A stretch of 46,343 nucleotides of DNA from a virus: positions 1-46,343 of the IMG/VR virus record IMGVR_UViG_3300033816_000679, one strand, 5' to 3'. Positions 21,264-46,343 of this stretch are shown here, piece after piece (positions within the stretch are counted from its first letter, which is position 1; every line of letters begins with the position of its first letter). The notes below the pieces were generated by a model. The model did no database searches and was not told where the DNA came from. It was given only the letters and a program-made list of their open reading frames with translations. A program made the translations under genes and the position numbers.

Positions 21264-24200
21264 ATGCCACGCATCGTTGAGATTCCAGATGTAGCTCGCC
21301 TCTCGTTTCCGGACGACCTCAGTGACGATGCGGTCCTGGAAGCAACGAGGAATTTCTACGAGCAGTCTAAGCAGGGTGCTTTAGGGGCCGCTGGCGCAGC
21401 GACAGTGCGTGAGCCTCCACGTACAATCGGCAAAGCCATGAAAGCGGCGGCGCGCCTCACCGATTGGCTTCAGCCTCCCGATGTAAACCCTGAAACGGGA
21501 ATTCCAATTTGGCAGCAAGCCGAATCGACTTTCCTTGGTCCAGAAACTGTTACGCCAGTCGAGAAACCTGCACCTGTTCCAGTTGAGCAGACAGGTCTGT
21601 ATCAGGCGGGCGAGTCCCTTCAACGCGGCGCCGAGAAGATGTTTCCGGTCAGCCCATTGCGTGAGCAGGATTTTCTTACTCAGGTGGGTTCCGGAATCGG
21701 ATCGTCGGCAACCTCGTTCATCCCTTATCTCGGACCAGCAATCTACGCAGGTAGCACTGCTGAGGATGCTGCGGAAAAAGCGGGGCGTTTCTACGACAAC
21801 AAGATCGCGGAGGCGATGGCAGCTGGAAATGGCGCTGAGGCAAGCCGGTTGCAGGAGGAGAAGAAGTACCAACAGGCGCTTCAGTTCGGACTCAACGCGC
21901 CGTTAGGCTATGCAACCGAGCGATTCTTAGGCGTAGTCCCTGGCCTCAAACAAATCACCGAGGGCGGCGGAAAACTCATTCCCAAGCTCGCCCCTGGACA
22001 GACCATTGAGAACACTAAGAAGCTCGCCGGGTATTTCGCTAAGCAGGGCGTCAAGCCGACAATCGGAGAATTCGCCCAAGAGGGATTGGAGCAGGCTGGC
22101 GGCAACCTGAGTGAGATGGCTTACAATCCAGAGGCTGAATTTTTGGATGGAGTCATTGACGCATCTGGTGTTGGCGGAACAGTTGGGGCCATCACCTCGA
22201 TCCCGCTGAGCCTGCTTGGGTCAAAACTGCGGAAGAATCGGTTGGATAGAATCAAGGATTTCCGGGACACAAGGCTGGCCGAGGGGCCGCTTTCGGATCA
22301 GCAGATCAAGGAAATCAATGACAGGATAGTCGCAGGCCAGCCGCTTTCAGAACCGGAGCCAGGAAGTCTGTTAAATCTTCTCAGCGAAGACCCAGCCGCT
22401 CGCTCCTCAGTCGGAGGAAACAACGCTGAACTCCTCCCCAACGCCACCGCCACTCTGGCGGGAATCAACTCCGGCGGCGCGCCTTCTGGGCCGATTCGCA
22501 TCACGCCGCCGCCTGTGACTGGTGGCGCTCCTGGGGAAGAAGCCAAGATTCCAGACATGGCTCTGGAGACGGATGTTGTTGATGAGGAGACTCCGATCGA
22601 GGTTGCTGCTGTTGCGCCTGAGACTGTCGCTGTCGCCGAGACGTCAACTCCCGCCGCTCCCGCCGAAGTCCAGCTGCTGACGATCGAGGAGACGCAGGAG
22701 TACAACGCGGGCGTCGATCTCGGAACGGATTCCATGTCGGATGAGGAACTGATTCGCTTCGAGGAACTCGCCGGCCGCGTTCGACAACTGGAGCAGGCTG
22801 GGTTTGAGTTCGATGAAACGACTGGATGGGCTAAACCAGGGGTGGCTGCTACGCCGGCTGAGGTTCCAGCTACGCCGGCAGAAACGCCAGCTGTGGCACA
22901 GGAGCCCACACCGTTCAAAGTGGCGCCTGATTTCCGGTACACGATCACGGAAGCTCCAAATTACGGATTAAGCCCGCTCTCATACAAAGACGCAGACTTC
23001 GACTTGGAGGCCCTTCAGTTCCAAGCAGAGCGGGGCCGCCTAACTCCAGAAAGGTTTGCTCAATCTGAAATCGGAAGGCGGATGGATAGTGGCCAGATGA
23101 GCGGTGTTAACAGCGGTTTAAAGGTAGATCCCGTTGGAACCATCAAAGCCTTGCGAGCCGCGCTGGTTCCTGCGCCGGCCGCTGCGCCAGCTGCACCCAA
23201 ACCAACCCCCGCACCTCGGCCCGCGCCCGCCCCGTCACCTCAAAACCCGCTCGCCAACCAAACCGTTGGATTCGGAAAACATTCCAACCTCCTGGTCAAA
23301 GACCTCCTTGCGCAGCAGCCAGACTACGCCGCATGGCTGGTCAGAAGTACCAGGAGCGCCGCGCCAGGATCACGCACGCGCCAGGTTGGCGACTACATCA
23401 GCTCGCTGCCGGAATACCAAAACGCAGTCACAGAAGAGAAAGCGAAAGCCGAAGCAATCCTTACCGATGAAAACAAAACTTTCCTTACCGGCCTCAAAAT
23501 CACCGCTCAGCAGAACCCGGACGGCAGCATCACCCTCCGGGGCAAAACTTACGACCGCCAGGACGACCTCCGTGCCGCTGGTGGACGGTATTCCAAAGAC
23601 AGCCGCACCTACACCATCTCTGCCGCCGGTCTTGGGCAGTTTATCGAGCGATCAAGAACTGATCCAGGGACTACTGGCGGACAAAGAAGTGGTAGCCCGG
23701 CTTATTCCCGTGATGTTGAACTCCGAAAACTCCGAGAGGATGCGGACAACCGGCCCGACCGAAGCGGATTGGATGGAGGCGTTGACAACTATCTTAGCGT
23801 AGAAACCCAGGAGCTTATCCGACAGGGTGAAGACTTTGGGATCCCAAGGGAAGTTGGGGATGAGCAGATTGAAGATGCAGCCCTCATGGTCCAAGCGTTT
23901 GCAACCAAGCGCCCATTCTTCATGCTTTCCAGCGCACCTGGAACCGGAAAGACCTTCGTGCTTGGGGCTGGTATTCGCGAGATGCAGGACCGTTTCGCCC
24001 GCAAGATCATCTACGTTACCCTCAACCGGGGTCTGATCAAACAGATCCAGCAGGATCTCAAGGCCTACAATCTCGGACCCGTAAAGTTCATCACCTACTC
24101 GGAGATGAAAGACCTCGCGCCGGAAGAATCAGACGTGCTGATCTTCGATGAAGCGCACGCGATTAAGAATCTGGCAGGAGCAGGGTCTGACCAAGCCAAG

Positions 24201-27200
24201 AAGGCTCAGGAATGGATCCAGCAAACCAAGTTCCCAATCTTCTCGACTGCAACGCCGTTCGAGAACCCGACTCAGACAGCCTACCTGCTGAACACTGGAA
24301 TCTTTGATTCGTTCAACGGTGACTACAAACAGTTCGCTGCGGCATACGGAGCGACCCCGATCAAAAAAGACGGTCAGGTAGTGAGAACGGTTTGGCTCCC
24401 GACTAAGACCAACGAGCAGGATCAAATTGCGGCGAGAAACTTCTTCCGAAAAGAGGGCATCTTCACGGCCCGAAAGACCCGGCTGCCGGCGGATAAAGTT
24501 GATTCGCGTCTGGTGGCTATCAAGGGTAACCAGAAATGGACCGACATCTACAACGCGTTCTCCGACGAAGCGGAAAACCAAAAGGGCTCGCTAGACGGTA
24601 CGGACAAGATGTGGGTGATCAACTACAAGAAGCGCCTGCTGGAAGCGTCGAAGGTTGGAAACGCGATCAACGAGGCATGGCGAGCTTTGAATGCTGGCCG
24701 TTGGCCGATCATCTTCGTTGAGACCAAGGCGGAGAGAACCATCGACATCAACGAACAGCGCCGTCTCCAGCAGGAATTTAAGCGCGCCAAGGCGCTGGCT
24801 AAAATGATGGGCGGTGAATCGCCTAGGAGAAGCGATTACCCTGGTTTGCTGTCAGACGGACTGATCAACCTTCTGGAGTCCACGATGGACAAGGTTGGCG
24901 TCTCGGCTATCGAGATACCGTCTGCTGAAGATGTCATTAAACGCGAGATTGGGGCACAGAACGTCGCGATCTTCACTGGCTCCATTCCAGATTCCCAAGC
25001 CCAGAAGAACCTCGAAGAATGGCGCGGAAAGCAACCTATGGTCCTGGTCGCAACCATGGCTAAGGGAGGCACCGGCTTGTCACTGCACGACAAGACCGGC
25101 ACTCATCCGACAACCCAGATCAATGTCAACCTGCCGTGGACTGCCACCCAGGTTGAGCAGGTATCACTGCGTTCCGCCCGATACGGCCTCAAGAGCAAAG
25201 CTCAGATGATGTGGCTCTTTGCTGACAACATTCCGTTCGAGCGGGAATTGGCGCAGCGGGTTGGTGGCCGCATGAGGGACATGGGCGCGCTGGTTCAAGG
25301 AGAAGCCGGAGCTACTGCTGCCAACATCAAGAACTTCAATTTCGAGGATGAATCATTCTCGGAGGCTAACGCTGCCGAGGCAGCTAAGAAGGATCTGACG
25401 AAGGAGGAGCCTAAGGTTACGCCACCACCTGCCACTCCCGCTCCAGCAGCCGCACCGAAGGCCAAGAAGGCCCGCGAATGGACGTTCCGAGGCGACATCC
25501 TGGATGACATCATCAATCTGGGCGGCGTCATGTCCAGGTCGCAGGCCAAGAAGGAGGGCCGACTGGATGCGATCAAGAGCCTCTATGATGACGCTCCGAG
25601 GCTGAAGCCGTTCTTCAACAAAATCTTCGCAGGCAGGTCGCGTGGAACCGCCAGCCGGAACCAGCCCGACGTGTTGCTTCAGGAACTCGCCATGGAAAAT
25701 CCTGGCAAGTACGGAGATATGACGGTTGCGGAGTTCTGGGCCGAGATAGAGAAGGCAGCACGCGGGCGTGAAGGCGACACTGCCGAGGCGCGCAAAGAAG
25801 CCAAAGCAGCAGCCGCTGGAGCCGAAGAAGCGATGGGCTTGGACGCGTTCTTGCAGGCGCAGGATGAAGCGTTCGCCGACGCGCAGACCGAGGCCATGCA
25901 ACGCAAAGGCGAGCCGGATGGCCCCGTCGAGGTATCGGTTGGAAGTCTGTCGCTTGGGGACAAGTTCTCGATCCAAGGCGAGCAGTTCGAGGTGACCGGG
26001 ATCACGCCGGATGGCGACTACACGATCAGGGATGGCCAGAAGTTTGGCGTCCAGAGTCTGACCGAATACGACACGATCTTCGTGGACTCAGCGCCAGTGG
26101 CCAAGGAAGAGGGGGTCCCACGGACGCCGCGCCTTGGAGCCATGCAGCAGCAGGGCGACCTATTGGCAGGACAGGCAGAATCATTCGCACTGGTTGGCGA
26201 AAAGGGTGTCGATTACGAGAAGCGCCAGCGCGAAGCGGAGGCGAAGGCTCGCGCCGCTGCTGAAGCCAAGGCCGCCCAGGAGAAGGCGCAGACTCAGATG
26301 GATCTTGGCGACGCCGTCGCCGAAGCCTCCGACGCGATCGCCCAGTTCGTCGAGTCCATCACTCCCAAGGCCGGCATCACCGACGGGCCGACGCCCGAGG
26401 AGTCTGCGCGCCGGGTTCTCGAAGCTCTTACCAAGCTCGCCTCCGCCGCGATCCGTTCCGGCATTCAGAGCGCATCCCGGTGGGCGGCTGGCTTACAGCT
26501 GAAGCTCAGTCCAGCATTGCAGTACGCCTGGGACCGCGCTCAAGGATCGACAGCTGAACCCACGCCGGAGGTTATCGCCGATGTAGCCACCATTCCGGAG
26601 CGTGCGGCTACCGACTTCGGTATGATCTACACTACGCCCGGCCAACCTGTGACCACCAAACGTGGCGCATACGAGGATACGGTTGCTGGGCGCCGGTCCC
26701 GGACTCCCGAGGTGCAGAACGCTGGCTTCCAGCTGGCAGTCGATGCGTTCAATGAGGCAGGGGTGAAGTTCCGCCAAGTGGGCGACGCCTTGTTCGCGCC
26801 TGTCGATGGGGTTGACCAGGAGGATGCTGGAAGAAAGCTGATCGAGGTCGCCAAAAAGAAGATCGCCAAAGCCAAGGCTGATGGTCGCAGCGATACCATC
26901 GCAGAGTTGATCCAGTCGCTCCGCAACCACTTCGGCGCATCCGAGGCATTCAGCCCTGATACCCGAGATGAACTCTACCTGATCGGTCAGTCTGAGGCGT
27001 CCCAGTTTGGTATTAACCTGGCGAGCCTGAGGGCGTCCGTGAAGGACTTCGTGGCCATGGCCCGTAACGTGCGTGGATTCCTCACCTCTGCCATCTACGA
27101 CAACTTCAACGGCGAGAGCGTCAAGGGCGTGATGGACAAGATCATGGCTGAGTTCCGTGGACAGTTCACCGAAACCGAGATTCAGAAGATCGTTGGCGAG

Positions 27201-30200
27201 AAGCCTGACCTACAGGAGATGCTGAATCGGTTTGGAGTCTTGGCACTGGCCGACACCGGCGGTCGCGTGTACCGCGCTGTCCAGGCGCGCCTGAAGACCA
27301 AGAAGGCACCCACCCAGAAGGCTAAGCAGAAGCGCAGCATTGAGGATGAAGCCATTGACCAGATCATCGAGAATGCTCTAGCCCTCGGGGTTACCGAGCC
27401 TCCCCAGCCCACGAATCGAAAGCTCACGTCCGACGAGCGCCTCGCGCTGATGACCAAGCCTTCGACCCAAGCCAAGGTGCAGAAGGCTACCGAGGATGCC
27501 GTCAAGCAAGCCGAGTTCAATGCGGGCTGGAACATCATGATGGCCCGAGCGGCTGGCAACGAAGAGCTTCGCGCTCAGTACCAGGAAGCCATGGATGCCA
27601 AAGAAGATCCGGATCCAGAGGCGATCGAGGAGGGTCTCGACCTACCGCAGTACGCCCACTGGCGCACAATCCGCGACGGGTTCCTGAACTACTCGCCGAC
27701 CACCTTGAAGCTCGCCCAGGACGTGATTCGCGGCCGGTTCAAGGGAACGCAGTTCGGGCCGAAAAAGGTAGCACCGCCGGCGCCCGCCAAGATCGACCTC
27801 GTTCGCCTGGTGCAGCAACCCAACGCCGAGATGAGCCGCGTGATCGGCAGCCAGCTGGCTTCCATCGAACGCATCATGGATCTGGCCGGAGCATCACCAG
27901 AGGCCAAGGCCCGCGTGATGCAGATGATCACGGCCAACGTGGGGTCTCAGGTGCAGCTGGCCCGCCAGCGCGTGCTAAATAACTTCTTGTACGTGAAGGC
28001 CAAGATGGGCCCAACAACCGCCAGTGACCGCCTCCAGCGGCTGATCAACGCCGGCATCACCGAGGATCCGCGCTACCGGTCTGAGCCGACACGTAAACTC
28101 CTGAAGCGCGTCGCCAAGACCTACCTGACAGCCGATGAGCTTTCAGGCATGGCGACCAGGACTCGGGCCGAGAAGCTCGCGTTCCTGACCGGCAAACTGA
28201 ACCAGATCGTCGCAGCTGAGAATCTGGCCAATGAGTGGATGCAGGGCGCTGTCTGGACCTACCTCACCGAGCGGATGATGGAGGCCGAGAACGCCGTAGT
28301 CTCCCAGATCGTGGGCGCCAAGGACGTTAGCTTCGATCCGGCTCAACCGAAGACTGAAGCGCAGCTGGAAGCTGATCGTGCCAAGGCTCGCGATCGCCTC
28401 GTTGGTGGTATCCGCGCTGGCCTGCTGGACCAGCGTATCGCAGAGAGTGTCGCCAAGAACCCCGCGTTGCAGCGGTTGGTTCCCAAGATGAGCGACCTGG
28501 TGAAGCGGGTCCTCAACACCCCGCAGGCCGGGCAAGCCAAGCTAGCTCAGGCGTTTTCGGAGGCGTTGCTGTCAGAACTGGCGATCGACCAGGCGCTGGC
28601 CGACAAGACTGGAGTTGCGCTGGCCAAAGCGTTCGAGGCGAAGTTTGAGCGGGCACGCATCCAGGCACTGGATAAGGCGGTCCAGAAGCTCACCGGTAAA
28701 CAGCGCGAGGAGGCTGGCCCAGGCACTCCGCTCTGGCAGAAGATCGAGCAGTTCGTGAACGCGGGCGGCATGAACTCAGCGGCGCTCCTGCAAAGCATCG
28801 CCAAGAAATCGGGCTGGCAGGTGCCTACCGACGAAGAGGTATCCCGCTTCCGAGACCTGGCGCGCCTGGAGCAGGAGCTTAGCACGGCTACCGAAGAGGA
28901 GCTTAGCAAGGGCATCACGGATGACATCAAGGCTGCGATGAACGAGGGCAAGCGCATGGACGTTATGCGTGAACTCCAGATGCGTTGGGCGCGGATGACC
29001 ATGCCGATCCGTGGCAATAAGCAGAACCTGGCAAGGGCGGCCAAGGAATACGGGTCAGCGAACACGTTGTTCAAGTTCGGCTTCATCACCAAGCAGCTGA
29101 TCGACGTGGCTACGCAGATGTTTGTTTACACGCCGTCACGTGCAGGTGCGACGGCGATCCAAAGATTCGTATCCAGTCGGGACCCGAATCGCACACTCCG
29201 CCTTTGGAAGGATACAGCGACTACCCTTGAGGATGCTTACAGAGCGCGCTTCAACGCGCTGAACATGGCGTATAAATCTGCGCTCCAAGCCGCCAAAGGC
29301 CGCGCTGAAAAGGATACCATCATGGGTCTCCAGAGTGGAATGCGTGCGCTGGATCGCATCAACGCGCAGGCAACGGAGTATTACAAGAGCGGCAAATACG
29401 CGCAGGCTACGGTGCTTCGTATTCTTGGACTCGCGCAGCTGTCCTACCGCTTCGCCTCATCCCTCGACGCATTCCAAGGTGTCCTGGCCGAGCAGCAGGA
29501 GATCGGTGCTTGGGTTGAATCACAGCTGCGCCTCCAGGGCATGGGTCAGGCCGAGGCACGAAAGACTGCAAAGACAATCATTGGAGATTCCATTGCCGAG
29601 TACGCGTTGGCCCAGGCGTTGGTTGGAGACAACCCCAACGTCGCGCCCAAGGATCGTAGCGCCGCTGCATGGAACGTCGTGCGCGCACGGCAATACCAAC
29701 GCATCGCGGCAGCTGGTTTGGACGCGGGAGATATCAAGAGTATCACGCAAAACCTGCGGTCCACCATTGGATGGAACGTCGAAGAAGAAGGAGGACCCGG
29801 TGGGGTTATCGGGCAAGCGATGAAATCCACCGGCAAAATCCTGTCGCGCATCGGGATTCCGGATCTTCTGGGAATGTTCTCAAACGCCGTTGCAATCGGA
29901 GTCAACCGTGGACTTACGTTTGCTGGCGGAGGTTTCGTTCCCGATGCGTTCGAGGGGTCCGCCTGGTACAAGACCGAGACCGACAAGGTGCAGCGCAAGA
30001 TTGAGGCTGCGGCGGGACTGGGGCTTTCCGGGTTGTTCGTTGGATTAGTCCTCTCAGGCGCGCTGCGAGTCTTTACCAGATGGCCCGACGACAAGGAAGA
30101 GGCTGACCGATTGGAGCGTGAAGGCCACAAGCCCAACACGATGGAGTTGGATCTTCCTGATGGGAAGATGCTGCGTGTTTCGCTGAACACTGGACCGTTC

Positions 30201-30944
30201 CAGTACATTCGCCCAGCGCTGGCCGCTGTCGGCGAGCTTCAGTACACCATTGCCAAGCGCAATCGCCTCAACGAAAAGGCCGCTGCTGCTGCCAAGAAGA
30301 AGGGGCTCACCTTTGAGCCTCGCGAACTCACTGCGAAGGATGTTGGCTGGGCGTTGGTCTGGGGCGCCTACTCAGCTATCGCCCAGGGGCGCACCGCATC
30401 TGGAATGATCGGCGCCGGCACATATCGTGGAGCGCCGGATGTGGGTAAGATCGCCGCTGCTACTGTGAGCCCCCTGATTCCGTTTCAACCCCTCCTGCGC
30501 GAAGGGACCGCCATGTCCGGCGCGCAGTTCAACCCCAAGGACCAGACGTTCATCAACCTCCTGGTCCCGACACCCTGGAGCGGCAAAGTTGACCGTAACT
30601 TCCTTGGGGACCCAGTTGGTACACCGCGTGCCCAGGAGCGCATCATGTCAGTCCTGACTGGCGGCACCGCGATCGTTGGAGGCGAAGATCCTGACCGCGC
30701 CTACCAGGTGCTGGCCAAGACTGGATGGACGCCGGCCACCCCTCAGAGCAACAAGTTCTTCCAGTTCGGCCGCGTGCAACGGCAGGCTACCCCGGAGGAG
30801 TTGACCAGGATGCAGGAGGTTCGCGCAGTCGAACTCAAGACCCGTATTTCGCAACTGGATCCTCAGACCGCCACCAAACGGCAACTGGACCGCATCGAAG
30901 ACATCGCGAACGCAAAAGCGAAAAAAGCTGTGGGAATTCGATAA
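21264..30944 (+). CDS. 3,226-residue polyvalent virion protein with SNF2-like helicase
   Basis: One uninterrupted 9.7-kb gene. Domains in order: residues 1-35, an IVEIPDVARLSFPDDLSDDA head common in large ejected proteins; 140-240, hydrophobic helices; 430-520, Ala/Pro/Val/Glu linker; about 665-715, FGKHSNLLVKDLL...YAAWLV, like the exonuclease X C-terminal fold; about 740-795, RGKTYDRQDDLRAAGGRY; 870-1350, superfamily 2 helicase with SAPGTGKT near 888-895, DEAH near 961-964, ATPFENP, and a motif VI-like QVEQVSLRSARYG near 1295; about 1405-1500, DILDDIINLGGVMSRSQAKK; about 1555-1610, SLGDKFSIQGEQFEVTGI; long helical region; 2580-3100, helical C-terminus resembling LPD38. No methyltransferase motif (D/N-P-P-Y) is visible. 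It probably rides in the virion and enters with the DNA. Confidence 0.85.
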   Translation: MPRIVEIPDVARLSFPDDLSDDAVLEATRNFYEQSKQGALGAAGAATVREPPRTIGKAMKAAARLTDWLQPPDVNPETGIPIWQQAESTFLGPETVTPVEKPAPVPVEQTGLYQAGESLQRGAEKMFPVSPLREQDFLTQVGSGIGSSATSFIPYLGPAIYAGSTAEDAAEKAGRFYDNKIAEAMAAGNGAEASRLQEEKKYQQALQFGLNAPLGYATERFLGVVPGLKQITEGGGKLIPKLAPGQTIENTKKLAGYFAKQGVKPTIGEFAQEGLEQAGGNLSEMAYNPEAEFLDGVIDASGVGGTVGAITSIPLSLLGSKLRKNRLDRIKDFRDTRLAEGPLSDQQIKEINDRIVAGQPLSEPEPGSLLNLLSEDPAARSSVGGNNAELLPNATATLAGINSGGAPSGPIRITPPPVTGGAPGEEAKIPDMALETDVVDEETPIEVAAVAPETVAVAETSTPAAPAEVQLLTIEETQEYNAGVDLGTDSMSDEELIRFEELAGRVRQLEQAGFEFDETTGWAKPGVAATPAEVPATPAETPAVAQEPTPFKVAPDFRYTITEAPNYGLSPLSYKDADFDLEALQFQAERGRLTPERFAQSEIGRRMDSGQMSGVNSGLKVDPVGTIKALRAALVPAPAAAPAAPKPTPAPRPAPAPSPQNPLANQTVGFGKHSNLLVKDLLAQQPDYAAWLVRSTRSAAPGSRTRQVGDYISSLPEYQNAVTEEKAKAEAILTDENKTFLTGLKITAQQNPDGSITLRGKTYDRQDDLRAAGGRYSKDSRTYTISAAGLGQFIERSRTDPGTTGGQRSGSPAYSRDVELRKLREDADNRPDRSGLDGGVDNYLSVETQELIRQGEDFGIPREVGDEQIEDAALMVQAFATKRPFFMLSSAPGTGKTFVLGAGIREMQDRFARKIIYVTLNRGLIKQIQQDLKAYNLGPVKFITYSEMKDLAPEESDVLIFDEAHAIKNLAGAGSDQAKKAQEWIQQTKFPIFSTATPFENPTQTAYLLNTGIFDSFNGDYKQFAAAYGATPIKKDGQVVRTVWLPTKTNEQDQIAARNFFRKEGIFTARKTRLPADKVDSRLVAIKGNQKWTDIYNAFSDEAENQKGSLDGTDKMWVINYKKRLLEASKVGNAINEAWRALNAGRWPIIFVETKAERTIDINEQRRLQQEFKRAKALAKMMGGESPRRSDYPGLLSDGLINLLESTMDKVGVSAIEIPSAEDVIKREIGAQNVAIFTGSIPDSQAQKNLEEWRGKQPMVLVATMAKGGTGLSLHDKTGTHPTTQINVNLPWTATQVEQVSLRSARYGLKSKAQMMWLFADNIPFERELAQRVGGRMRDMGALVQGEAGATAANIKNFNFEDESFSEANAAEAAKKDLTKEEPKVTPPPATPAPAAAPKAKKAREWTFRGDILDDIINLGGVMSRSQAKKEGRLDAIKSLYDDAPRLKPFFNKIFAGRSRGTASRNQPDVLLQELAMENPGKYGDMTVAEFWAEIEKAARGREGDTAEARKEAKAAAAGAEEAMGLDAFLQAQDEAFADAQTEAMQRKGEPDGPVEVSVGSLSLGDKFSIQGEQFEVTGITPDGDYTIRDGQKFGVQSLTEYDTIFVDSAPVAKEEGVPRTPRLGAMQQQGDLLAGQAESFALVGEKGVDYEKRQREAEAKARAAAEAKAAQEKAQTQMDLGDAVAEASDAIAQFVESITPKAGITDGPTPEESARRVLEALTKLASAAIRSGIQSASRWAAGLQLKLSPALQYAWDRAQGSTAEPTPEVIADVATIPERAATDFGMIYTTPGQPVTTKRGAYEDTVAGRRSRTPEVQNAGFQLAVDAFNEAGVKFRQVGDALFAPVDGVDQEDAGRKLIEVAKKKIAKAKADGRSDTIAELIQSLRNHFGASEAFSPDTRDELYLIGQSEASQFGINLASLRASVKDFVAMARNVRGFLTSAIYDNFNGESVKGVMDKIMAEFRGQFTETEIQKIVGEKPDLQEMLNRFGVLALADTGGRVYRAVQARLKTKKAPTQKAKQKRSIEDEAIDQIIENALALGVTEPPQPTNRKLTSDERLALMTKPSTQAKVQKATEDAVKQAEFNAGWNIMMARAAGNEELRAQYQEAMDAKEDPDPEAIEEGLDLPQYAHWRTIRDGFLNYSPTTLKLAQDVIRGRFKGTQFGPKKVAPPAPAKIDLVRLVQQPNAEMSRVIGSQLASIERIMDLAGASPEAKARVMQMITANVGSQVQLARQRVLNNFLYVKAKMGPTTASDRLQRLINAGITEDPRYRSEPTRKLLKRVAKTYLTADELSGMATRTRAEKLAFLTGKLNQIVAAENLANEWMQGAVWTYLTERMMEAENAVVSQIVGAKDVSFDPAQPKTEAQLEADRAKARDRLVGGIRAGLLDQRIAESVAKNPALQRLVPKMSDLVKRVLNTPQAGQAKLAQAFSEALLSELAIDQALADKTGVALAKAFEAKFERARIQALDKAVQKLTGKQREEAGPGTPLWQKIEQFVNAGGMNSAALLQSIAKKSGWQVPTDEEVSRFRDLARLEQELSTATEEELSKGITDDIKAAMNEGKRMDVMRELQMRWARMTMPIRGNKQNLARAAKEYGSANTLFKFGFITKQLIDVATQMFVYTPSRAGATAIQRFVSSRDPNRTLRLWKDTATTLEDAYRARFNALNMAYKSALQAAKGRAEKDTIMGLQSGMRALDRINAQATEYYKSGKYAQATVLRILGLAQLSYRFASSLDAFQGVLAEQQEIGAWVESQLRLQGMGQAEARKTAKTIIGDSIAEYALAQALVGDNPNVAPKDRSAAAWNVVRARQYQRIAAAGLDAGDIKSITQNLRSTIGWNVEEEGGPGGVIGQAMKSTGKILSRIGIPDLLGMFSNAVAIGVNRGLTFAGGGFVPDAFEGSAWYKTETDKVQRKIEAAAGLGLSGLFVGLVLSGALRVFTRWPDDKEEADRLEREGHKPNTMELDLPDGKMLRVSLNTGPFQYIRPALAAVGELQYTIAKRNRLNEKAAAAAKKKGLTFEPRELTAKDVGWALVWGAYSAIAQGRTASGMIGAGTYRGAPDVGKIAAATVSPLIPFQPLLREGTAMSGAQFNPKDQTFINLLVPTPWSGKVDRNFLGDPVGTPRAQERIMSVLTGGTAIVGGEDPDRAYQVLAKTGWTPATPQSNKFFQFGRVQRQATPEELTRMQEVRAVELKTRISQLDPQTATKRQLDRIEDIANAKAKKAVGIR

Positions 30945-30989: not shown

Positions 30990-31997
30990 ATGAGCAACCT
31001 TGCGCTACAGCAAACCACTCCCACGCAATCCCAAGCACTGAGCGCGTTCTCTTCGGAGAGCGCGTTCGTTTCTGTGCAACGCATGGCCAAGGCCCTTGCG
31101 TCCAGCACCCTCGTTCCCGATTCCTATCGCGGCGAGGCAAACCTCGGAAACTGCATCATCGCGCTGGAACTCAGTCAGCGCATCGGCGCCTCGGTCATGG
31201 CCGTCATGCAGTCGATGGTCCCAATCCACGGCAAGCCAACGTGGTCTGCATCGTTTCTGATTGCCACCGTCAACTCCTGTGGCCGGTTCTCCCCGATGCG
31301 TTTCCGTTGGGTCGGACAAGAGGGGACAGATGACTGGGGCTGCCGCGCTTTCGCTGTCGAGCGCGAGGGCAACCTCGAGCTTGTCGGCGCTCTGGTGACG
31401 ATCGCCATGGCCAAGGCCGAGGGTTGGTATGGCAAGTCTGGCAGTAAATGGAAGACCATGCCGGAGCAGATGCTTCAGTACCGCGCAGCTGCGTTCTGGT
31501 GCCGCGCCTATGCGCCGGAGATTGCGTTGGGTATGCACACCTCGGAAGAGATCCACGACACTCAGGTAGCCCAACAGGTCGTGCAGCCGTCTGTCGCTAC
31601 CACCGTGACCAGTTCCGTTGTAGACGTGACCCCGACGCCGCCTGAGCCCAAGCCGCGCAAGAAGAAGGTCGAGCCCGAAGCCATCGCGGTCGCCGAGCCT
31701 GTGCCTGTGCCTGAACCTGAACCTGCGCCGGCTCCCGAGCCTGAGCCCGCACCGGTCGAGGCTACTGCCACCCCGGCACCGCTGCCCGAGTTGGTTGAAG
31801 AAACCGTCGAGTCCACACTGGCCTCGGTTGGTGCGACCTACGAGCAGCTGGTGAAACTCGCCACCGAACTGAACTGGTGGCCGACGCCCGAGGCGTACCC
31901 GACGGCGAATGATCTGACTGAAGACCTGAAGAAGTGGGTGATCCGCAACAAGCGCGGTATCGGTCGGGCAATGATGAAGGCAGGAGGTGCCCTGTGA
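30990..31997 (+). CDS. recT: RecT-family single-strand annealing protein
   Basis: 335 residues. Residues 25-190 carry the RecT signature: MAKALASSTLVPDSYRGEA, NCIIALELSQRIGASVMAVM, VPIHGKPTWSASFLIATVNS and QYRAAAFWCRAYAPEIALG. It anneals complementary single strands during phage recombination. Residues 210-275 are a Pro/Glu/Ala/Val linker with PEPEP repeats. The last 50 residues form a helical tail (TYEQLVKLATELNWW, KKWVIRNKRGIGRAMM). It heads an operon with a RecE-like nuclease. Its stop overlaps the next start (GTGA). Confidence 0.9.
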   Translation: MSNLALQQTTPTQSQALSAFSSESAFVSVQRMAKALASSTLVPDSYRGEANLGNCIIALELSQRIGASVMAVMQSMVPIHGKPTWSASFLIATVNSCGRFSPMRFRWVGQEGTDDWGCRAFAVEREGNLELVGALVTIAMAKAEGWYGKSGSKWKTMPEQMLQYRAAAFWCRAYAPEIALGMHTSEEIHDTQVAQQVVQPSVATTVTSSVVDVTPTPPEPKPRKKKVEPEAIAVAEPVPVPEPEPAPAPEPEPAPVEATATPAPLPELVEETVESTLASVGATYEQLVKLATELNWWPTPEAYPTANDLTEDLKKWVIRNKRGIGRAMMKAGGAL

Positions 31998-34071: not shown

Positions 34072-34271
34072 ACCCCGCATTCATCTACAAGCACACAATG
34101 ACCAGCGAGGTGCTGGTGGTGGACATTGAGCGAGCGAAGGAACTAGACGCAGCAAGACCGTACTGGAAACTGAGTCACTCAATCAATGCGGTCGAGGTGC
34201 TGAACTACATCGTCAAACTAACACCACGGCAGAGAAACCGATACATCAAGTCACTTACGGAAAAACCATGA
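34068..34271 (+). CDS. Small hypothetical protein
   Basis: 67 residues from ATG 34068, with AAGGAGGTG upstream and a 4-bp overlap. The sequence (FIYKHTMTSEVLVVDIERAK, SINAVEVLNYIVKLTPRQRN) predicts a small alpha/beta fold with a basic C-terminal helix. I do not recognise the family. Position is in the operon for recombination and small regulators. Confidence 0.6.
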   Translation: MNPAFIYKHTMTSEVLVVDIERAKELDAARPYWKLSHSINAVEVLNYIVKLTPRQRNRYIKSLTEKP

Positions 34272-34810
34272 CCTTCTCCCAATCTGGTCAGCTGCCACAC
34301 CACCAATACTGCTACGTCGATGCCTCGTTCATCTCCGACAAAATCGGCCTTATCCCCTGCGTCTGGTTCGGGCTGGTCTCGATTCCTGGACGCGCATGGG
34401 GTTGCACGGTCATGCTGGAATGCGGGGCCGTCTACCGGGCGGTGCCACCGCACGCGCTAGCATTCAATGAGAACCCGGAACCTGACTGGCGTATCGAGCA
34501 CGCTCAACGCTGGGACTGCTACGGCCGGGAGTTCACGACCATCGAGTACGCCTATCTGCGCGGCGTCACCGCCGAGGCGAAGGCTGGTAGCCTGCTTCGC
34601 AAAGGCCAGTACCTCTTTACCGCCGCACCCATCGACGATGGATTCTCCCGGTATCCCGAACAGGCCAAGGAGTTCTGCTTTATCCAGCTGGACAACGGCC
34701 GGCTCACGATCCAGCCGACGGACAAAGTCCTATTCCACGACCTCTCCTTCGTCACCCCCGAGTGGCCGACGGATCTCAAAACCACAACCGAAATCTACAG
34801 CTGCGAATGA
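34268..34810 (+). CDS. Hypothetical protein, 180 residues
   Basis: A beta-rich protein: QYCYVDASFISDKIGLIPCV, WFGLVSIPGRAWGCTVMLEC, AVYRAVPPHALAF, then HAQRWDCYGREFTTIEYAYL. It starts in a 4-bp overlap with its neighbour. Many aromatic and Cys residues and small beta strands suggest a compact enzyme-like or binding domain, but no catalytic motif is clear. Proteins like it, to my recollection, exist in other environmental phages without a function. Confidence 0.7.
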   Translation: MTFSQSGQLPHHQYCYVDASFISDKIGLIPCVWFGLVSIPGRAWGCTVMLECGAVYRAVPPHALAFNENPEPDWRIEHAQRWDCYGREFTTIEYAYLRGVTAEAKAGSLLRKGQYLFTAAPIDDGFSRYPEQAKEFCFIQLDNGRLTIQPTDKVLFHDLSFVTPEWPTDLKTTTEIYSCE

Positions 34811-40225: not shown

Positions 40226-40418
40226 CGCTGCGAGGTATGCCGACCAGGACGCCGCGCAGGATGCCTGCGGGTGGTTGCGCACCTGGACAAGGATGGAGCC
40301 CGGCCGCCCAGGGACTCCAAAGGGATTCCTTTACGGCCCAGACCGTCCCCACCCCCTGCCCCTGGTAGGGACCGCCCCGGCACCGGATCGCTATCGGGAC
40401 CCCCTCCACAATACCTAG
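40188..40418 (+). CDS. Possible small gene, low confidence
   Basis: 76 residues. It overlaps the end of the previous gene by 38 bp in another frame. The first 40 residues look plausible (AARYADQDAAQDACGWLRTW), but the rest is Pro/Arg/Gly-rich with no predicted fold, and there is no Shine-Dalgarno site. It may be a non-coding frame in GC-rich DNA. Confidence 0.25.
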   Translation: MSPPPVRRTWIPNAARYADQDAAQDACGWLRTWTRMEPGRPGTPKGFLYGPDRPHPLPLVGTAPAPDRYRDPLHNT

Positions 40419-40781
40419 GACACTTTCCAAACCGACATAGAACGCTTTACCAAATAGGGGTCTACTAGGGCCGCATTAGGGGTATCGCTTGATCCTCACC
40501 CTTCGTTTGACCCATACATTCTCAGTGCTTTTCTGCTTCAAAGTAGTAGGGTCCAATAGGGGTATAGGGCTAAAGTAAAGGTTAATGGTTCTACAGAATG
40601 CTGTCCTGATGGACTGATTCCGACGCTCCAAGAAATTCTCCAGCCGCCCCGCCATGAATGTATTGGGTGACTCCCTTAGCCTCATACCACCCCCCTACTT
40701 TGGCTTTATAAGACACTGAAAGTGAAGGGGTCAAACGGAGGGTGAGACCCCACCGGAATCCTCACAGGAAATTTCGGAGTC
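40419..40781. other. Repeat-rich non-coding region, origin candidate
   Basis: About 360 bp without a convincing gene and visibly less GC-rich than its surroundings. It has several TAGGG(G) repeats (40455, 40466, 40477, 40547, 40557, 40565), two of them as TAGGGGTAT 80 bp apart, and copies of CTCACCCTNCGTTT in both orientations. It lies between a divergently transcribed small gene and the end of the replication operon. Iterated motifs plus A/T enrichment suggest a replication origin, but this is inference. Confidence 0.4.
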
Positions 40782-40794
40782 TCACCCTGCGTTT
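40495..40794. repeat. Three copies of CTCACCCTNCGTTT
   Basis: Copy A is 40495-40513 (plus, CTCACCCTTCGTTTGACCC). Copy B is 40746-40728 (minus, identical except C for T at position 9). Copy C is 40781-40794 (plus, CTCACCCTGCGTTT, then diverging). A and B form an 18/19 inverted repeat about 214 bp apart. B and C overlap a 10-bp inverted repeat AGGGTGAGAC (40739-40748) / GTCTCACCCT (40779-40788) that brackets the stop codon at 40782. Confidence 0.75.
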
Positions 40795-41199: not shown

Positions 41200-43413
41200 T
41201 CAATCAAAGGCTGCAGATTTTTGAGGCGGCGAGATGGCCCACTTCACCTTGCCGGAGGATTTGGTTTTCTTGAACCGATGAGGATCCTGCTCATGCAGTC
41301 GAGCGAGGTAGACTCCGCAGGCGGTGTTGAAGCGGAAGAGGCGGTCGGCTTCCCGGGCGTACTTGGAATCGCGCAGGATGGTTTCGAGGTCGGCGGCCGT
41401 ACCTCTCCAGGTGAGGAATTCGTTCTCGAAGATCACGGTGTCGATGAGTCCGATGAGTTGGTGCTCTGGCGACAGCTGCATGAGTTCGTCGAGGATGGCT
41501 GGGTGCTGGTAGGCCTTGAGGCCGCAGCGGGGTTCGACGAGGTGGTCTGGGACGGTGAGGCCGTCGAGGTAGTGGGAGAACTGGGAGAGTTCGGTGTCGA
41601 TGATCTCGCGGAGGACTTCGATTTCGGGGCCGGGCCACGGGAGCGGATTGCGGACGCAGCGGAGGATAATGAGCTTGTCCATGAGGGACGGGTCGAGCGG
41701 GGGGAGGACTTGGAGGTTCTCAGGCTCGTCGTTGAGGGAGATGGACATGGCCCAGATGGGGCGCAGGGTGACGGCTTGGCGATTCTTGGGGTGGCAGGAC
41801 TGGTCGATGTCGAACAGCATGGATTTGATGTGGGAGCCGAGGGAGCGCCGGGAGTGGATATCGCGGCCGGGGGCCTCGTCGGAGATGCAGAGGTGTTCAG
41901 AGGCGAAGAGGTCGCCGTTGAACTCGGTGGCGCCACTCATATAGCGGTAGGGCTTGGCGATGCGGCCTCCGAGGAGTTTGGTGATGACCTGAGCCTGGAC
42001 GAAGGACTTGCCGCACGCGGCTGGACCGACGAGGGCAAGGGCCTGCGAAGCTCTCCAGGTGTTGGTGAGGACGGCGCGGCGGCGGAGCGCGAGCCAGTAG
42101 ATAAGACGCCAGTACTGGTCGTCGTTCTGGTCCAGGAGGTTATGGAGGTAGGTCTGGAGACGGGCGCAGTCGCCGGGGACGGATTCCAGTGGCGCGACGG
42201 ATTCGGTGACGAGAACCTTGCCGTAGAGGCCAGCGCGGTGACCGGCGACGGAACCGGCATAGCGGATCCGGGTGTCCCGGGTGCGGCGGAGGAGTTCGCG
42301 ATCGACGTCGGAGGCGCCGGTTTGGTCCTTGGTGGGGGAGACGCCGGACTCAGTGAAGAGGGTCCGGACGCGCTCGCCGTTGATCTGGGCGTAATCGCCC
42401 CAGGCGTTACGGGTCCACCACTGGCCGGAATTGGGGTCGTAATGGAGGTCGTCAAGCGGATTAGGTGACGCGGGCTGCGGCGCAGCGGGAACCGGCCGTG
42501 GTGGATCGCCAGCTGCGTCGAGGAGGCCCTGGATGGATACGTCAGCGGGGATTGGGTCGGCGAGGTCCCAGCCGTCGGGGAGTGTGGCTGGGAGGGAAAC
42601 GAGGCGGGCGGCCGGTAGGCGGGCTTTCAGGTAGACCATGGCGTCCCGGCCGGGTTTGTCGTTGTCGGGCCACAGGACGATAGGTGTGGCGCGTGTCAGC
42701 AGGGGGTCGATAGCAGCACGTCCGACGCGCTTGGAGCCGCCCTGCCAGGTGAGGACGACGTGGGACGGGAAGAGCTTGGATGCTGCGACGGCGGTTTTCT
42801 CGCCTTCTACGATGAGGACCGGGTCGTTCGGACGCCGGGCGAGGAGGTGGAGGTTGAAAATGGGGACGTCTTCGGGGGCGGTCCAGCCCTTCCAGCGCCA
42901 GTGGCGGGGGTTGAGGAGGTCCGGCGGCTGGTTGTCAGGCGGTAGGAACCGGAGGGGGCGGACGTCTTTGGAGCCGTCGGGGAGGTCGAATCGGACGACG
43001 TAGGCGCGGATCGTGCCGTCGGCGTCGGGATACGGCCACGCTGCGGAGCCGTAGCGGTACGGCTGGGAGGCGTCGTTACGGTGGCCGTGCTTGAGGGGGT
43101 CGAACGTGCGGGGTGCGGGCTGGTAATCGTCGCGGATACCGAGGAATTCGCGGGACCACTGGGCGGCCTGGGCCTTGGAATAGACGTGATGCTGGCCAAC
43201 GAGTTCGAGGAGATCGCCGCCCTGACCAGCGGCGTGGTCGTACCACAGACCCTGCTTGGGGCCTTGGAGTTCGACGTAACAGGAGTCGCCCGGGTCGCCG
43301 AAGACGTTGCCGACGATCCACTGGGGGCCGACCTGACGGCCGGCTGGGAGGAGTTGAGCGCAGAGTTCTGCGACACGGACGGAGAGTGCGTCCGAGAGTT
43401 CGGTGAGGGTCAT
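41200..43413 (-). CDS. TOPRIM primase-helicase (D5-like/SF3)
   Basis: 737 residues. The N-terminal segment has VELQGPKQGLWYDHAAGQGG, typical of phage primases. The TOPRIM core has VLIVEGEKTAVAA (E203) and LWPDNDKPG (near 247-255). A Pro-rich linker follows. The C-terminal ATPase has Walker A GPAACGKS (about 460) and a Walker B-like HLCISDEAPG, then DPSLMDKLIILRCV. This is the bifunctional primase-helicase of many phages, which unwinds and primes at the fork. No DNA polymerase gene is present, so it must serve a host or unknown polymerase. Confidence 0.9.
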   Translation of the reverse strand: MTLTELSDALSVRVAELCAQLLPAGRQVGPQWIVGNVFGDPGDSCYVELQGPKQGLWYDHAAGQGGDLLELVGQHHVYSKAQAAQWSREFLGIRDDYQPAPRTFDPLKHGHRNDASQPYRYGSAAWPYPDADGTIRAYVVRFDLPDGSKDVRPLRFLPPDNQPPDLLNPRHWRWKGWTAPEDVPIFNLHLLARRPNDPVLIVEGEKTAVAASKLFPSHVVLTWQGGSKRVGRAAIDPLLTRATPIVLWPDNDKPGRDAMVYLKARLPAARLVSLPATLPDGWDLADPIPADVSIQGLLDAAGDPPRPVPAAPQPASPNPLDDLHYDPNSGQWWTRNAWGDYAQINGERVRTLFTESGVSPTKDQTGASDVDRELLRRTRDTRIRYAGSVAGHRAGLYGKVLVTESVAPLESVPGDCARLQTYLHNLLDQNDDQYWRLIYWLALRRRAVLTNTWRASQALALVGPAACGKSFVQAQVITKLLGGRIAKPYRYMSGATEFNGDLFASEHLCISDEAPGRDIHSRRSLGSHIKSMLFDIDQSCHPKNRQAVTLRPIWAMSISLNDEPENLQVLPPLDPSLMDKLIILRCVRNPLPWPGPEIEVLREIIDTELSQFSHYLDGLTVPDHLVEPRCGLKAYQHPAILDELMQLSPEHQLIGLIDTVIFENEFLTWRGTAADLETILRDSKYAREADRLFRFNTACGVYLARLHEQDPHRFKKTKSSGKVKWAISPPQKSAAFD

Positions 43414-43436: not shown

Positions 43437-43685
43437 TTAGAGAGAGGTTGTCATAAAGGCTGGCGTGTGGTCCCCCACATAGGCGCCGAGTTGGTTGAAT
43501 TCGTGGTATTCGACGGCTTCTTCGTAGGTCATGCCGTAGGATTCCAGCTGAGCGATGACTTTGTCGTAGTCGTAGATCACGAATTGCTCACTGCCGAATC
43601 GAGTTCCGATCCCGAGGATGCAGTCGTCGAAGCCATCCATGACAACGAGGTCCGGATTGATGTCTGCGATTTGATCACGGGTCAT
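43437..43685 (-). CDS. Small hypothetical protein upstream of primase
   Basis: 82 residues from ATG 43685. The pattern DQIADINPDLVVMDGFDDCI, GIGTRFGSEQFVIYDYDKVI, then YGMTYEEAVEYHEFNQLGAY and GDHTPAF is one I remember from many phage proteins of unknown function in replication neighbourhoods. It is alpha/beta in appearance. Copy 1 of a 17-bp repeat lies 4 nt upstream of its start. Confidence 0.75.
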   Translation of the reverse strand: MTRDQIADINPDLVVMDGFDDCILGIGTRFGSEQFVIYDYDKVIAQLESYGMTYEEAVEYHEFNQLGAYVGDHTPAFMTTSL

Positions 43686-43689
43686 AGGA

Positions 43690-43780
43690 AAAAGAGGGGA
43701 CACTTTGGGCGAAAAGAGGGGACACTTTCAACTGCCCGGAAATGGGTGCATTAACTTGCAGTCAAAAGAGGGGACACTTT
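43690..43780. repeat. Three identical 17-bp direct repeats
   Basis: AAAAGAGGGGACACTTT occurs at 43690-43706, 43712-43728 and 43764-43780, all in the same orientation, with start-to-start spacing of 22 and 52 bp. They fill the only sizeable gap (94 bp) inside the replication operon. The last copy ends on the first base of the stop codon of the next gene. A shorter GGACACTTT occurs at 40419-40427. Confidence 0.9.
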
Positions 43781-43962
43781 CAGTCGTTGTTGAGATCGTA
43801 CTCGACCGCTTCCAGCTGCGCGATCCGGAGTTGTTCAGGTGTTGCTACCGCGTTGCCACACAGGATTCCGAGGCGTTCGTAGAAACGGTACTTGGCTTCG
43901 GCTGAGAGGTTTTCGGGTGCTGTTTGGAGTAGGGCTTGGGTTGTGATTGCTGTGTCGCTCAT
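43780..43962 (-). CDS. Small hypothetical protein
   Basis: 60 residues (MSDTAITTQALLQTAPENLS, AEAKYRFYERLGILCGN, then LRIAQLEAVEYDLNND). Helical and acidic. It is coupled to the VRR-NUC gene by a 4-bp overlap (ATGA). Similar short phage proteins exist without a function. Its stop codon begins in the third 17-bp repeat. Confidence 0.65.
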   Translation of the reverse strand: MSDTAITTQALLQTAPENLSAEAKYRFYERLGILCGNAVATPEQLRIAQLEAVEYDLNND

Positions 43963-44330
43963 AGGTTGTCTGTATCGCTAACGGATCGTGCAATGATGGC
44001 GAGACCGCCGGAAATGTTGACCTGCTCAAGCCAGTTGGATTGATCGGGCCGGACTTTACCGGTGGGGGTTTTGACTTCAATGGAGAGAAACTGGGCGATG
44101 GGTTTGCCGACCATGTCGGGCGTGACTGTAACCGTGCGCCAGCCGATCAGGTCACCAGAGCCCGGGAATAATCCCATGCGGACGTGGCGGGCATCGGTCA
44201 GGAAGACGCCTTCGGGATCGCGCAGGGCCTTGCCAACGTATCCCTCGCCCACTTGGTTACGGAAGACTCGGACGTGCGGTTTCGATCCAGCTGCGCGCAG
44301 GATCAGGGCTTGGAGTTCGGATTCGGTCAT
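43959..44330 (-). CDS. VRR-NUC domain nuclease
   Basis: 123 residues from ATG 44330, 2 nt after the helicase stop; a longer frame reaching 44453 would lie over the helicase gene. TESELQALILRAAGSKPHV, VRVFRNQVGEGYVG, DLIGWRTV and FLSIEVKTPTGKVRPDQ, then WLEQVNISGGLAIIARSV, are the VRR-NUC pattern of the PDDEXK superfamily, with catalytic D (in DLIGW), E and K (IEVK). It would cut branched DNA, such as a recombination or replication intermediate. It lies between helicase and primase. Confidence 0.9.
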   Translation of the reverse strand: MTESELQALILRAAGSKPHVRVFRNQVGEGYVGKALRDPEGVFLTDARHVRMGLFPGSGDLIGWRTVTVTPDMVGKPIAQFLSIEVKTPTGKVRPDQSNWLEQVNISGGLAIIARSVSDTDNL

Positions 44331-44332
44331 GG

Positions 44333-45715
44333 TTACAGGATGGAGGTGATGAGACTGGTCTTCCGTGAGCGTGCTTTCCAGCGGAAGTATGCCCATCCCG
44401 GTTTGTAGCCACGTTTCGCTGCGAGGGAACGAAAATCGTCCAAGGTTTTGCACATTCCTTCCTCGCGGCGTTCATCTCGTTTCTTTGCGATGTCCTCGAT
44501 GGACAGGCGCTGAAGCTCGCCATCGACCTCTTCGATCTCCCGAGGAGCGATCTCACGTGCGGATCCGCACTGCGGGCAGGCGGTGCCGGCGAAGATCGCG
44601 AAACACTTCGAGCACTGCTTGGTTTCGACCGGGCGTGACTTGGCCTTGCGTTTCTCGCGCCCATCGAGGTCCCACTCGCGCTCCTGCTCGGCCAGACCGT
44701 GACGCAGGCAGTTCCCTACGTGATCGAGGATCACGGCGTGAGTCTTGCCTGGGTACGGCCGGAGAGCGCGGCCTACCTGTTGCAGGTGCATGGACAACGA
44801 CTGCGTGGGCCGGAGTAGGATCGCCGCGTTGACGGTTGGGAGATCGAACCCCTCGGAGATCAGTTCGCAGGAAGTCAGGACGAGGATCTTACCAGCTGTG
44901 AGATCATCGACGCGCTGCTTGCGGACATCTGGTTCCAGTGTCCCGTCGATGCTAGCAGCCGGGATTCCGCAGGAGTTAAACGTATCAGCTACCTGCTGCG
45001 CGTGCGCCACTGAGATGCAGAACGCTACGGCCCGCTGCCGATTGCAAAACCGGACGTAATGGGTGACGGCATCGCCTGTGATGCGCGGCGTGTTGACGAC
45101 TTCCTCGGCCTCGGAGCGATCGAAATCGCCGGCGATCGTGTGGACCTGACTGAGATCGACGGTTTCGCGAGGAGCGTAGTACACCGGCCGGGCCAGGAAT
45201 CCGTTGTCGATGAGCCACTGGACTGACGGCCCCATGACCATACGGTCGAACATCACGCCGAGGCCCTTGCCATCGAGGCGCTCTGGGGTTGCCGTGACGC
45301 CGATGAACTTGGCGTTGGGCCATGCGGCGAACATCTGGACGTAGGACTTGGAGACCGAGTGGTGCGCTTCGTCGATGATAACGAGGTCTGGAGGAGTGAC
45401 CGTATCCAGCCGGCGCGCAAGGGTCTGAATCGAGGCGACCATGGCAGATTGTTGAGCCATGAATTTGCCCGACTGGATGAATCCATGCGGTACGCCGACG
45501 CGCTTCAGTGTGGCACTGATCTGCTCGAGGATTTCTTTCCGGTGCGCGACGACGATCACCCGGGTCCCGCGCTTCAGGACCTGCTGGGTGATGTACGAGA
45601 AGAGCACCGTCTTACCGGATCCAGTGGGGCTGACGGCGATCGGGCGCTTGGCGCCGGACGCGAACGCGGATCGGATGTCGTTAGACAGCTGGTTTTGGTA
45701 GGGGCGCAGTTCCAT
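44333..45715 (-). CDS. DEAD/DEAH-box (superfamily 2) helicase
   Basis: 460 residues from ATG 45715 (MELRPYQNQL), the start expected for this family. Motif Q-like RPYQ, Walker A SPTGSGKT (29-36), DEAH (115-118), GVTATPERLDG, and motif VI QQVGRALRP. A four-cysteine zinc ribbon (CSKCFAIFAGTACPQC) follows the ATPase core, then a basic C-terminus. It resembles phage SSL2-type helicases that unwind DNA in replication or recombination. ATG 45772 would add 19 Arg-rich residues and would lie 10 nt after the predicted -10 box, so the start is unresolved. Confidence 0.92.
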   Translation of the reverse strand: MELRPYQNQLSNDIRSAFASGAKRPIAVSPTGSGKTVLFSYITQQVLKRGTRVIVVAHRKEILEQISATLKRVGVPHGFIQSGKFMAQQSAMVASIQTLARRLDTVTPPDLVIIDEAHHSVSKSYVQMFAAWPNAKFIGVTATPERLDGKGLGVMFDRMVMGPSVQWLIDNGFLARPVYYAPRETVDLSQVHTIAGDFDRSEAEEVVNTPRITGDAVTHYVRFCNRQRAVAFCISVAHAQQVADTFNSCGIPAASIDGTLEPDVRKQRVDDLTAGKILVLTSCELISEGFDLPTVNAAILLRPTQSLSMHLQQVGRALRPYPGKTHAVILDHVGNCLRHGLAEQEREWDLDGREKRKAKSRPVETKQCSKCFAIFAGTACPQCGSAREIAPREIEEVDGELQRLSIEDIAKKRDERREEGMCKTLDDFRSLAAKRGYKPGWAYFRWKARSRKTSLITSIL

Positions 45716-45782: not shown

Positions 45783-45811
45783 AGGCTGCGTTCTGCGGCT
45801 TGACGTGTCAA
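45783..45811 (-). promoter_or_regulatory. Predicted promoter of the leftward replication operon
   Basis: On the minus strand TTGACA (45811-45806), 17 nt, CAGCCT (45788-45783), 10 nt to ATG 45772. It shares GTGCTTGACACG with the promoter at 39781-39809. Confidence 0.55.
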
Positions 45812-45813
45812 GC
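45798..45813. promoter_or_regulatory. Palindromic operator in the divergent RHH/helicase region
   Basis: A perfect palindrome GCTTGAC-GT-GTCAAGC contains the -35 boxes of both divergent promoters. It is well placed as a binding site for the ribbon-helix-helix protein encoded 22 nt to the right, giving autoregulation and control of the replication operon. Confidence 0.6.
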
Positions 45814-45834: not shown

Positions 45835-46026
45835 ATGAGTAACACGATTCGAGTGAGCTACCGGCTGCCGATTGAGGTCGCCCAGATGCTGGAAGATGAG
45901 GCGATTCGATCCCGGCGCACGAAGACGGCGGTGTTGATCATCGCGATTGAGGACCATGTCCTGCGGGGCGAAGACGATCTTCCAGAGGTGATCAAGAAAC
46001 CCGTTGACACTCGGAAGTCGCGCTAG
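45835..46026 (+). CDS. Ribbon-helix-helix regulator
   Basis: 63 residues from ATG 45835. SNTIRVSYRLPIEVAQMLED, then EAIRSRRTKTAVLIIAIED, is an Arc/MetJ-like ribbon-helix-helix: a beta strand followed by two helices that dimerise on DNA. The C-terminal 20 residues (DDLPEVIKKPVDTRKSR) are a basic tail. It faces the helicase operon across a perfect palindrome. Expected roles are autoregulation and timing of replication genes. A toxin partner is absent, so it is not a usual antitoxin. Confidence 0.8.
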   Translation: MSNTIRVSYRLPIEVAQMLEDEAIRSRRTKTAVLIIAIEDHVLRGEDDLPEVIKKPVDTRKSR

Positions 46027-46216: not shown

Positions 46217-46343
46217 CCCCGGGGCAGGAGAGCCAATATGGCAACAGGAAATGTAATCAGCTGTAAGCAGTTCGCTTCCTTCCTCGTCTCGCAGGAACCT
46301 GTGTATGACAAGGAAGTTCTCAAAGATGTCCGTCCGTTTGACG
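46217..46343. repeat. Right copy of the 127-bp terminal repeat
   Basis: Identical to bases 1-127. Includes the start of the capsid gene again (ATG at 46238); the truncated copy is not a second gene. Confidence 0.95.

Follow-up and report, generated by a model that had tools for sequence, protein, structure and literature searches.

Three identical 17-letter repeats immediately before a small accessory gene of an uncultured lake-type phage

Conserved short repeats recur in phage genomes, among them the SAS and ESAS elements of Cluster K mycobacteriophages and the repeats of Cluster O, and the accounts cited here report no established reader for them. SAS and ESAS are short asymmetric repeats that are found in one orientation 3-7 bp upstream of start codons, lie outside the structural genes, are not matched exactly in any host that was examined and have no established function (PMC3203893, PMC12699233). 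SAS contains an AGGAG ribosome-binding core and is present in 11-19 copies per genome before many genes. The Cluster O repeats are 17 bp long and nearly invariant, consist of perfect 7-bp dyads with a 3-bp spacer, number more than 30 per genome and occur in intergenic positions as well as within coding genes, and recombination between their copies adds or removes gene-sized segments (PMC4351075). Cluster A stoperators, the L5-type repressor sites, are asymmetric 13-bp sequences in short intergenic gaps, with an orientation tied to transcription, more than twenty sites per genome and a known repressor (PMC9283540). REPs are defined by a GTAG motif together with a palindrome (PMC8266576).

The DNA analyzed in this study, referred to as the window, is a 46,343-bp stretch from an uncultured lake-type phage that ends in a 127-bp direct terminal repeat (1-127 = 46217-46343), as expected for a complete circular assembly. 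A first-pass annotation had pointed to three identical 17-bp repeats in one orientation within 91 bp, and closer examination confirmed exact copies of this repeat, designated R (AAAAGAGGGGACACTTT), at 43690-43706, 43712-43728 and 43764-43780, all on the plus strand and spaced by 22 and 52. A 17-mer occurring three times was found in none of 300 simulated sequences of the same dinucleotide composition, and a search for a fourth site with up to three mismatches yielded none elsewhere in the 46,343-bp window (shuffle expectation 0.03). The same annotation had noted GGACACTTT again at 40419-40427; the recurrence is real, but it is located one base off, at 40418-40426. Because relatives read GGCCATTTT at this site, within a conserved noncoding block, it is unrelated and does not represent a fourth copy of R. 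On the gene strand, the elements are arranged as the stop codon TGA overlapping R, followed by H, R, 5 nt, R, 4 nt and ATG. The stop codon is that of a 60-aa ORF upstream of the array (43780-43962, minus strand), which overlaps the last T of copy 3, and the ATG, 4 bp from copy 1, is that of the gene for an 82-aa accessory protein (PHROG 13182; 43437-43685, minus strand), so the statement that the copies abut gene ends on both sides was right in substance. Copies 1 and 2 are separated by a 5-bp spacer (GGGCG, 43707-43711), and copies 2 and 3 by the 35-nt element H (CAACTGCCCGGAAATGGGTGCATTAACTTGCAGTC, 43729-43763), an imperfect nested hairpin with outer CTGC/GCAG and inner AATG/CATT pairs. The R sequence forms an imperfect dyad (AAAGAG-N4-CACTTT), its hairpin energy is negligible at -0.8 kcal/mol, and the RNA fold of the whole array was unexceptional (z -1.2). 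Rfam and tRNA searches of the array region gave no match and no sigma-70-type promoter was found there.

The array resembles SAS and ESAS in the asymmetry of the repeat and in its placement: it lies outside the structural genes, R is located 4 bp (window) or, where a copy adjoins the ATG, 3-17 bp (relatives) before the start codon in one orientation, the upstream stop codon may sit inside the repeat, and an inverted repeat may be adjacent. For SAS this adjacent inverted repeat is of 17 bp; the inverted arms of H are only 5-7 bp long, and H is found in most but not all relatives. In contrast to SAS, R read on the gene strand (AAAGTGTCCCCTCTTTT) is C-rich and without AGGAG, is found in tandem before one gene only and has a copy in a tail gene of relatives, and the sequences differ. 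R shares with the Cluster O repeats its length of 17 bp, its near invariance and its occurrence both between and within genes, and the likeness may extend to recombination between copies that adds or removes gene-sized segments; however, R is an imperfect dyad present in 0-4 copies. Like stoperators, it is asymmetric, lies in short intergenic gaps and has an orientation tied to transcription, but there are only three sites, no repressor was found, and the tail copy of relatives is oriented opposite to the array relative to transcription. The REP/TnpA-REP systems (PMC8266576) also consist of short intergenic repeats beside a hairpin, with GGGGACA-like hairpins in some bacteria, whereas R has neither GTAG nor a palindromic stem, Y1 transposase or dispersal. 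Since sequence, copy number and distribution differ, R is not a member of the SAS/ESAS elements, the Cluster O repeats or the stoperators. Analogous to these three systems, its most likely function would be that of predicted sequence-specific binding sites that make up the leader of an accessory gene.

The array occupies the whole gap separating the 60-aa and 82-aa minus-strand genes. These genes belong to a minus-strand operon that also comprises a primase/helicase-like gene (41200-43413, minus strand; PHROG 239, DUF6371 and weak DUF5906), a VRR-NUC nuclease gene (43959-44366, minus strand) and a DEAD-type helicase gene, in agreement with the earlier placement of the repeats within a replication operon. 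The predicted structure of the 82-aa protein matched uncharacterized phage proteins only, with no PDB match at E <= 0.001, and many other phages encode homologues of it that are not preceded by R. In all ten array-less relatives in which the junction was read, the 82-aa gene was absent as well and the 60-aa gene, which is kept with and without the module, was followed directly by the primase gene. Two genomes that are near-identical around the site, G030 and G002, read CACGACTAACACCTCTCAGC and CACGACTGAAAGTG[array, 82-aa gene]CTCTCTAACTCACCTCTCAGC, respectively. As these two genomes and the array-less junctions differ by the whole unit, the array and the 82-aa gene are gained and lost together. 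The array belongs to a gain/loss module inserted between the 60-aa and primase genes and should be annotated as part of a gene-gain module rather than labelled an origin or a transposon remnant. Elsewhere in the family, a junction sequence (A)AGGAGGCCAAGCCGTGAG was repeated before several small accessory genes in G010 (L295-L297; oriented positions 41321-43391) and G012 (L290-L292; 46639-46875), which suggests cassette shuffling at ribosome-binding sites.

The exact 17-mer was present in 61 IMG/VR stretches. Relatives with the same gene pair were collected by a search with the 82-aa protein and junction alignment (13 contigs) and supplemented with two more phage contigs binned in bacterial assemblies (L151 and L167), giving 15 contigs in addition to the window. 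All related sequences are uncultured contigs, and no relative was matched when the array region was compared with an annotated phage collection. Three copies of R were found in the window, L066-L069, L076 and L087, two of these with one copy carrying a single mismatch, two copies in L065, L072/L073, L151 and L167, and one copy in L070, L071 and L074. In L075 (G011) both copies were degenerate and the 82-aa gene was kept. R was always located in the leader of the 82-aa gene, 3-17 nt before the ATG where a copy is adjacent, while the placement of H varied between positions before or after R pairs, and H was missing from some relatives. The spacer was exactly 5 bp in every tandem pair, corresponding to a 22-bp period, with at least eight different spacer sequences (CGCCC, CGTTC, CGTCG, CGTCC, TAGCC, CAGCC, CCACC and CGAGC). 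Fourfold-degenerate sites of the 82-aa gene differed between the window and L151, L167, L072 and L076 at 17/30, 16/30, 11/31 and 7/29 positions, respectively, and R was identical in most array lineages even though such sites of the adjacent gene differed by about 20-57%. Judged from these alignments, a recent origin does not by itself readily account for the identity of R across lineages, unless R recombines independently of its gene. In L151 the R pair is adjoined by two copies of another tandem repeat (AAAAGCGGCTCCG), as though this site could also accommodate arrays of other words. The binning of L151 as Ca. Aquidulcis frankliniae (MAG) and of L167 as Nitrospiraceae (isolate AM_1312) may represent host hints or mis-binning, both being contigs of this phage family.

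The same stretch of 16-17 bp recurs in about 45 relatives within a large tail/virion gene, as STKRGDTFGFNIQM in the codons AAA AGA GGG GAC ACT T, followed in most of them by TT, which completes R. Five genomes carry both the tail site and the array, on the same strand and at a distance of about 17.2-17.7 kb, and the tail copy of a sixth, G012, has one mismatch. Synonymous sites flanking the tail R vary freely, while the KRGDT window had a synonymous O/E of 0.14 compared with a gene mean of 0.66 (27 non-redundant sequences, chosen by protein), below every other window outside the overlapping or start region of the tail gene. Among 2228 internal windows (20 genes, 12 genomes, G011 kept), KRGDT ranked 29 for constraint; a rank of 1 of 1766 is biased, as genomes had been picked for the motif and G011 excluded. 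Exceptions to the constraint were L176 and L215 (G011). At the corresponding place, where relatives read AAA AGA GGG GAC ACT TT, the window has AAG CGA CTC GAT ACC TAT (KRLDTY; 14664-14681, plus strand), and its close relatives likewise have no R there. G001-G004 and the window carry perfect or near-perfect arrays with no tail site, and most phages with the tail site carry no array. As each exists without the other, neither array nor tail copy requires the other. The identity of the two words together with the constraint argues that R may be a word read by something. Occurrences of the 17-mer in unrelated viral proteins (e.g. L010, L016 and L011) were set aside as coincidences of KRGDT coding that a search for exact matches will pick out. 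A RecT-like gene of the window contains AAGAGGGGACA (31318-31328, plus strand), with 11 nt in common with R and 13 nt in many relatives; this R-like stretch is under no special constraint and the match is a probable chance event. Comparison of L261-L267 revealed an 18-nt tract of the RecT-like gene with two sharply distinct haplotypes, either GGAAAAGAGGGGACAGAT or GGCAAGGAAGGCGCCGAC-like, that switch within otherwise similar sequence, and G028 has the first haplotype in a G016-like left flank.

The first-pass annotation had offered iterons, regulator sites and a mobile-element remnant as possible readings. That the array is a phage replication origin or initiator-binding site appears very improbable. 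It does consist of 17-bp direct repeats in one orientation at 22-bp spacing, beside a primase-like gene and with a 5-bp tandem spacer in all paired relatives; however, the repeats are not present wherever the replication module is. Relatives without the whole array module keep the same VRR-NUC and primase genes, on which ground an iteron origin was rejected, and the copy number varies from three down to one, a variation that the annotation itself had named as an argument against iterons. A better origin candidate is found in a noncoding block of about 500 bp (40290-40790), also present in array-less relatives. This region, located between convergent genes, contains the conserved blocks GGGACCCCCTC..AATACCTAGG..TTTTCC and ACCCTCACCCTGCGTTTT as well as repeated AGGGGT, is common to relatives with and without the array, and is a plausible replication origin. 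We consider it hardly credible that R is a mobile repeat of the REP/BIME type and owes its movement to a REP-associated tyrosine (Y1) transposase. The link drawn in the annotation between GGGGACA motifs and such transposases has a basis in a few bacteria, in which the 17-mer is part of GGGGACAC hairpins and in two cases has Y1_Tnp 2.5 and 4.6 kb away, and R does adjoin a hairpin in the phages, but the link does not extend to the phage. Y1_Tnp was detected in none of 20 family phages in a search that matched the positive control genomes, and 257 Gb of bacterial and archaeal genomes yielded 29 exact matches to the 17-mer, two of them the phage contigs L151 and L167, compared with 30 expected. 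R has neither a GTAG motif nor a stable palindrome, and the array is confined to one junction rather than dispersed in many intergenic copies, coding sites in relatives aside. A REP/RAYT origin was therefore rejected for the phage on the basis of the genome scan, the Y1_Tnp search and the motif anatomy. L154 (2221-7680), from an uncultured bacterium, contains closely spaced GGGGACACC..GGTGTCCCC hairpins and a Y1 transposase 4.6 kb from an exact 17-mer on the same contig, and these hairpins look like a REP family.

Two further explanations involve processes within the phage itself. The repeats could be by-products of recombination at a cassette junction, duplicated and collapsed by slippage or RecT-assisted recombination as the accessory gene comes and goes, with no dedicated reader, an explanation that we regard as unlikely. 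Relatives differ in how many copies of R and H they have and in how these are ordered (L069, L076, L065, L071 and L151), the module is cleanly absent from a near-identical neighbor (G030 compared with G002), the phage encodes RecT and an exonuclease-VIII-like gene, other gene-junction repeats exist in the family, and indels between 17-bp repeats are found in Cluster O mycobacteriophages (PMC4351075). Drift alone, however, predicts neither an R that remains unchanged between deep lineages while flanks and spacer sequence change, nor a fixed spacer length, nor a constrained copy in the tail gene; a recombinational origin accounts for the changes in copy number and not for the conservation. It also seems improbable that RNA transcribed from the minus strand of the array (3 x AAAGUGUCCCCUCUUUU) serves as antisense or sponge against the plus-strand messages of the tail gene and RecT. 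The core AAAAGAGGGGACA is found on the tail-sense strand in 41 of 41 occurrences (19 genomes, G026 turned) with the array transcribed from the opposite strand, and predicted pairing amounts to 17 perfect pairs with the tail site (-26.9 kcal/mol) and 11 pairs with the RecT site of the window (-20.4 kcal/mol). In predicted folds the tail site is relatively unpaired (mean percentile 0.80), and in G011, with its decayed array, the two target sites have changed as well. On the other hand, arrays persist in the window and G001-G004 although these have no tail site, most tail-site phages have no array, array and target show no covariation, the RecT site is not specially constrained, and the fixed 5-bp spacer is left unexplained. 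A combined version, in which one exact 17-nt word would be used twice, with an early-transcribed array either antisense to the identical late tail-gene word under synonymous-site selection or titrating its reader, likewise seems improbable. If true, such a two-sided word would tie the accessory cassette in the replication operon to the control of tail synthesis or to replication-coupled events.

The reading of R as a recognition site is the one that we tentatively favor. From its conservation and position, R may well be the putative target of a sequence-specific binding factor in the leader or control region of the 82-aa gene, and the array probably represents putative regulator sites rather than a mobile element. 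The factor would be a protein, probably phage- or host-encoded; one to three copies of R together with the hairpin H would form the leader or control region of the accessory gene, where binding might regulate transcription, and the lone R kept in the tail gene of most relatives would be read by this factor as well. This operator-like reading is the best supported, as it agrees with a spacing of two turns in which the spacer sequence is free, with the conservation and position of R, and with its isolated copy in coding sequence. Among the three suggestions of the first-pass annotation, "sites for a regulator" accordingly fared best in view of the conservation, the 22-bp period and the leader of one gene, but the regulator itself was not found. 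Several observations count against binding sites: the region yielded no sigma-70-type promoter, the copies of R are more uniform than usual operator sets, tail sites without array and arrays without tail site indicate no strict coupling, the G011 array has decayed though the gene is kept, and the dyad is lost in the RecT match and in tail copies ending in TAC. The related, partly near-identical phages with 0, 1, 2 and 3 copies at one junction constitute natural experiments, and as a distant tail gene keeps this word under constraint at synonymous sites, what reads R and what R controls are testable questions.

No candidate repressor for R was recognized in the phage. A TraY/RHH-like gene (45835-46026, plus strand) is present in 18 of 19 genomes examined, with a palindrome (GCTTGACGTGTCAAGC, 45798-45813) directly upstream that is invariant save for one variant first base, and the two probably form an autoregulated divergent control region. 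Its product, the one evident DNA-binding protein, was demoted as a reader of R, since its own upstream invariant palindrome is unlike R. A T7/SP6-type promoter was considered too: R resembles the AGGGGACACT part of SP6/K1-5-type promoters but is without the initiation part. A PF00940 search for T7/SP6-type RNA polymerases gave no match in eight phages, and control genomes gave none either. Literature searches for the R sequence itself returned only unrelated papers. Elsewhere in the window, 21264-30944 (plus strand) encodes a protein of 3,226 aa, segments of which are helicase-like (ResIII, Strawberry-notch type), and the product of 34268-34810 (plus strand) matches PHROG 3704 (ferredoxin, auxiliary metabolic category).
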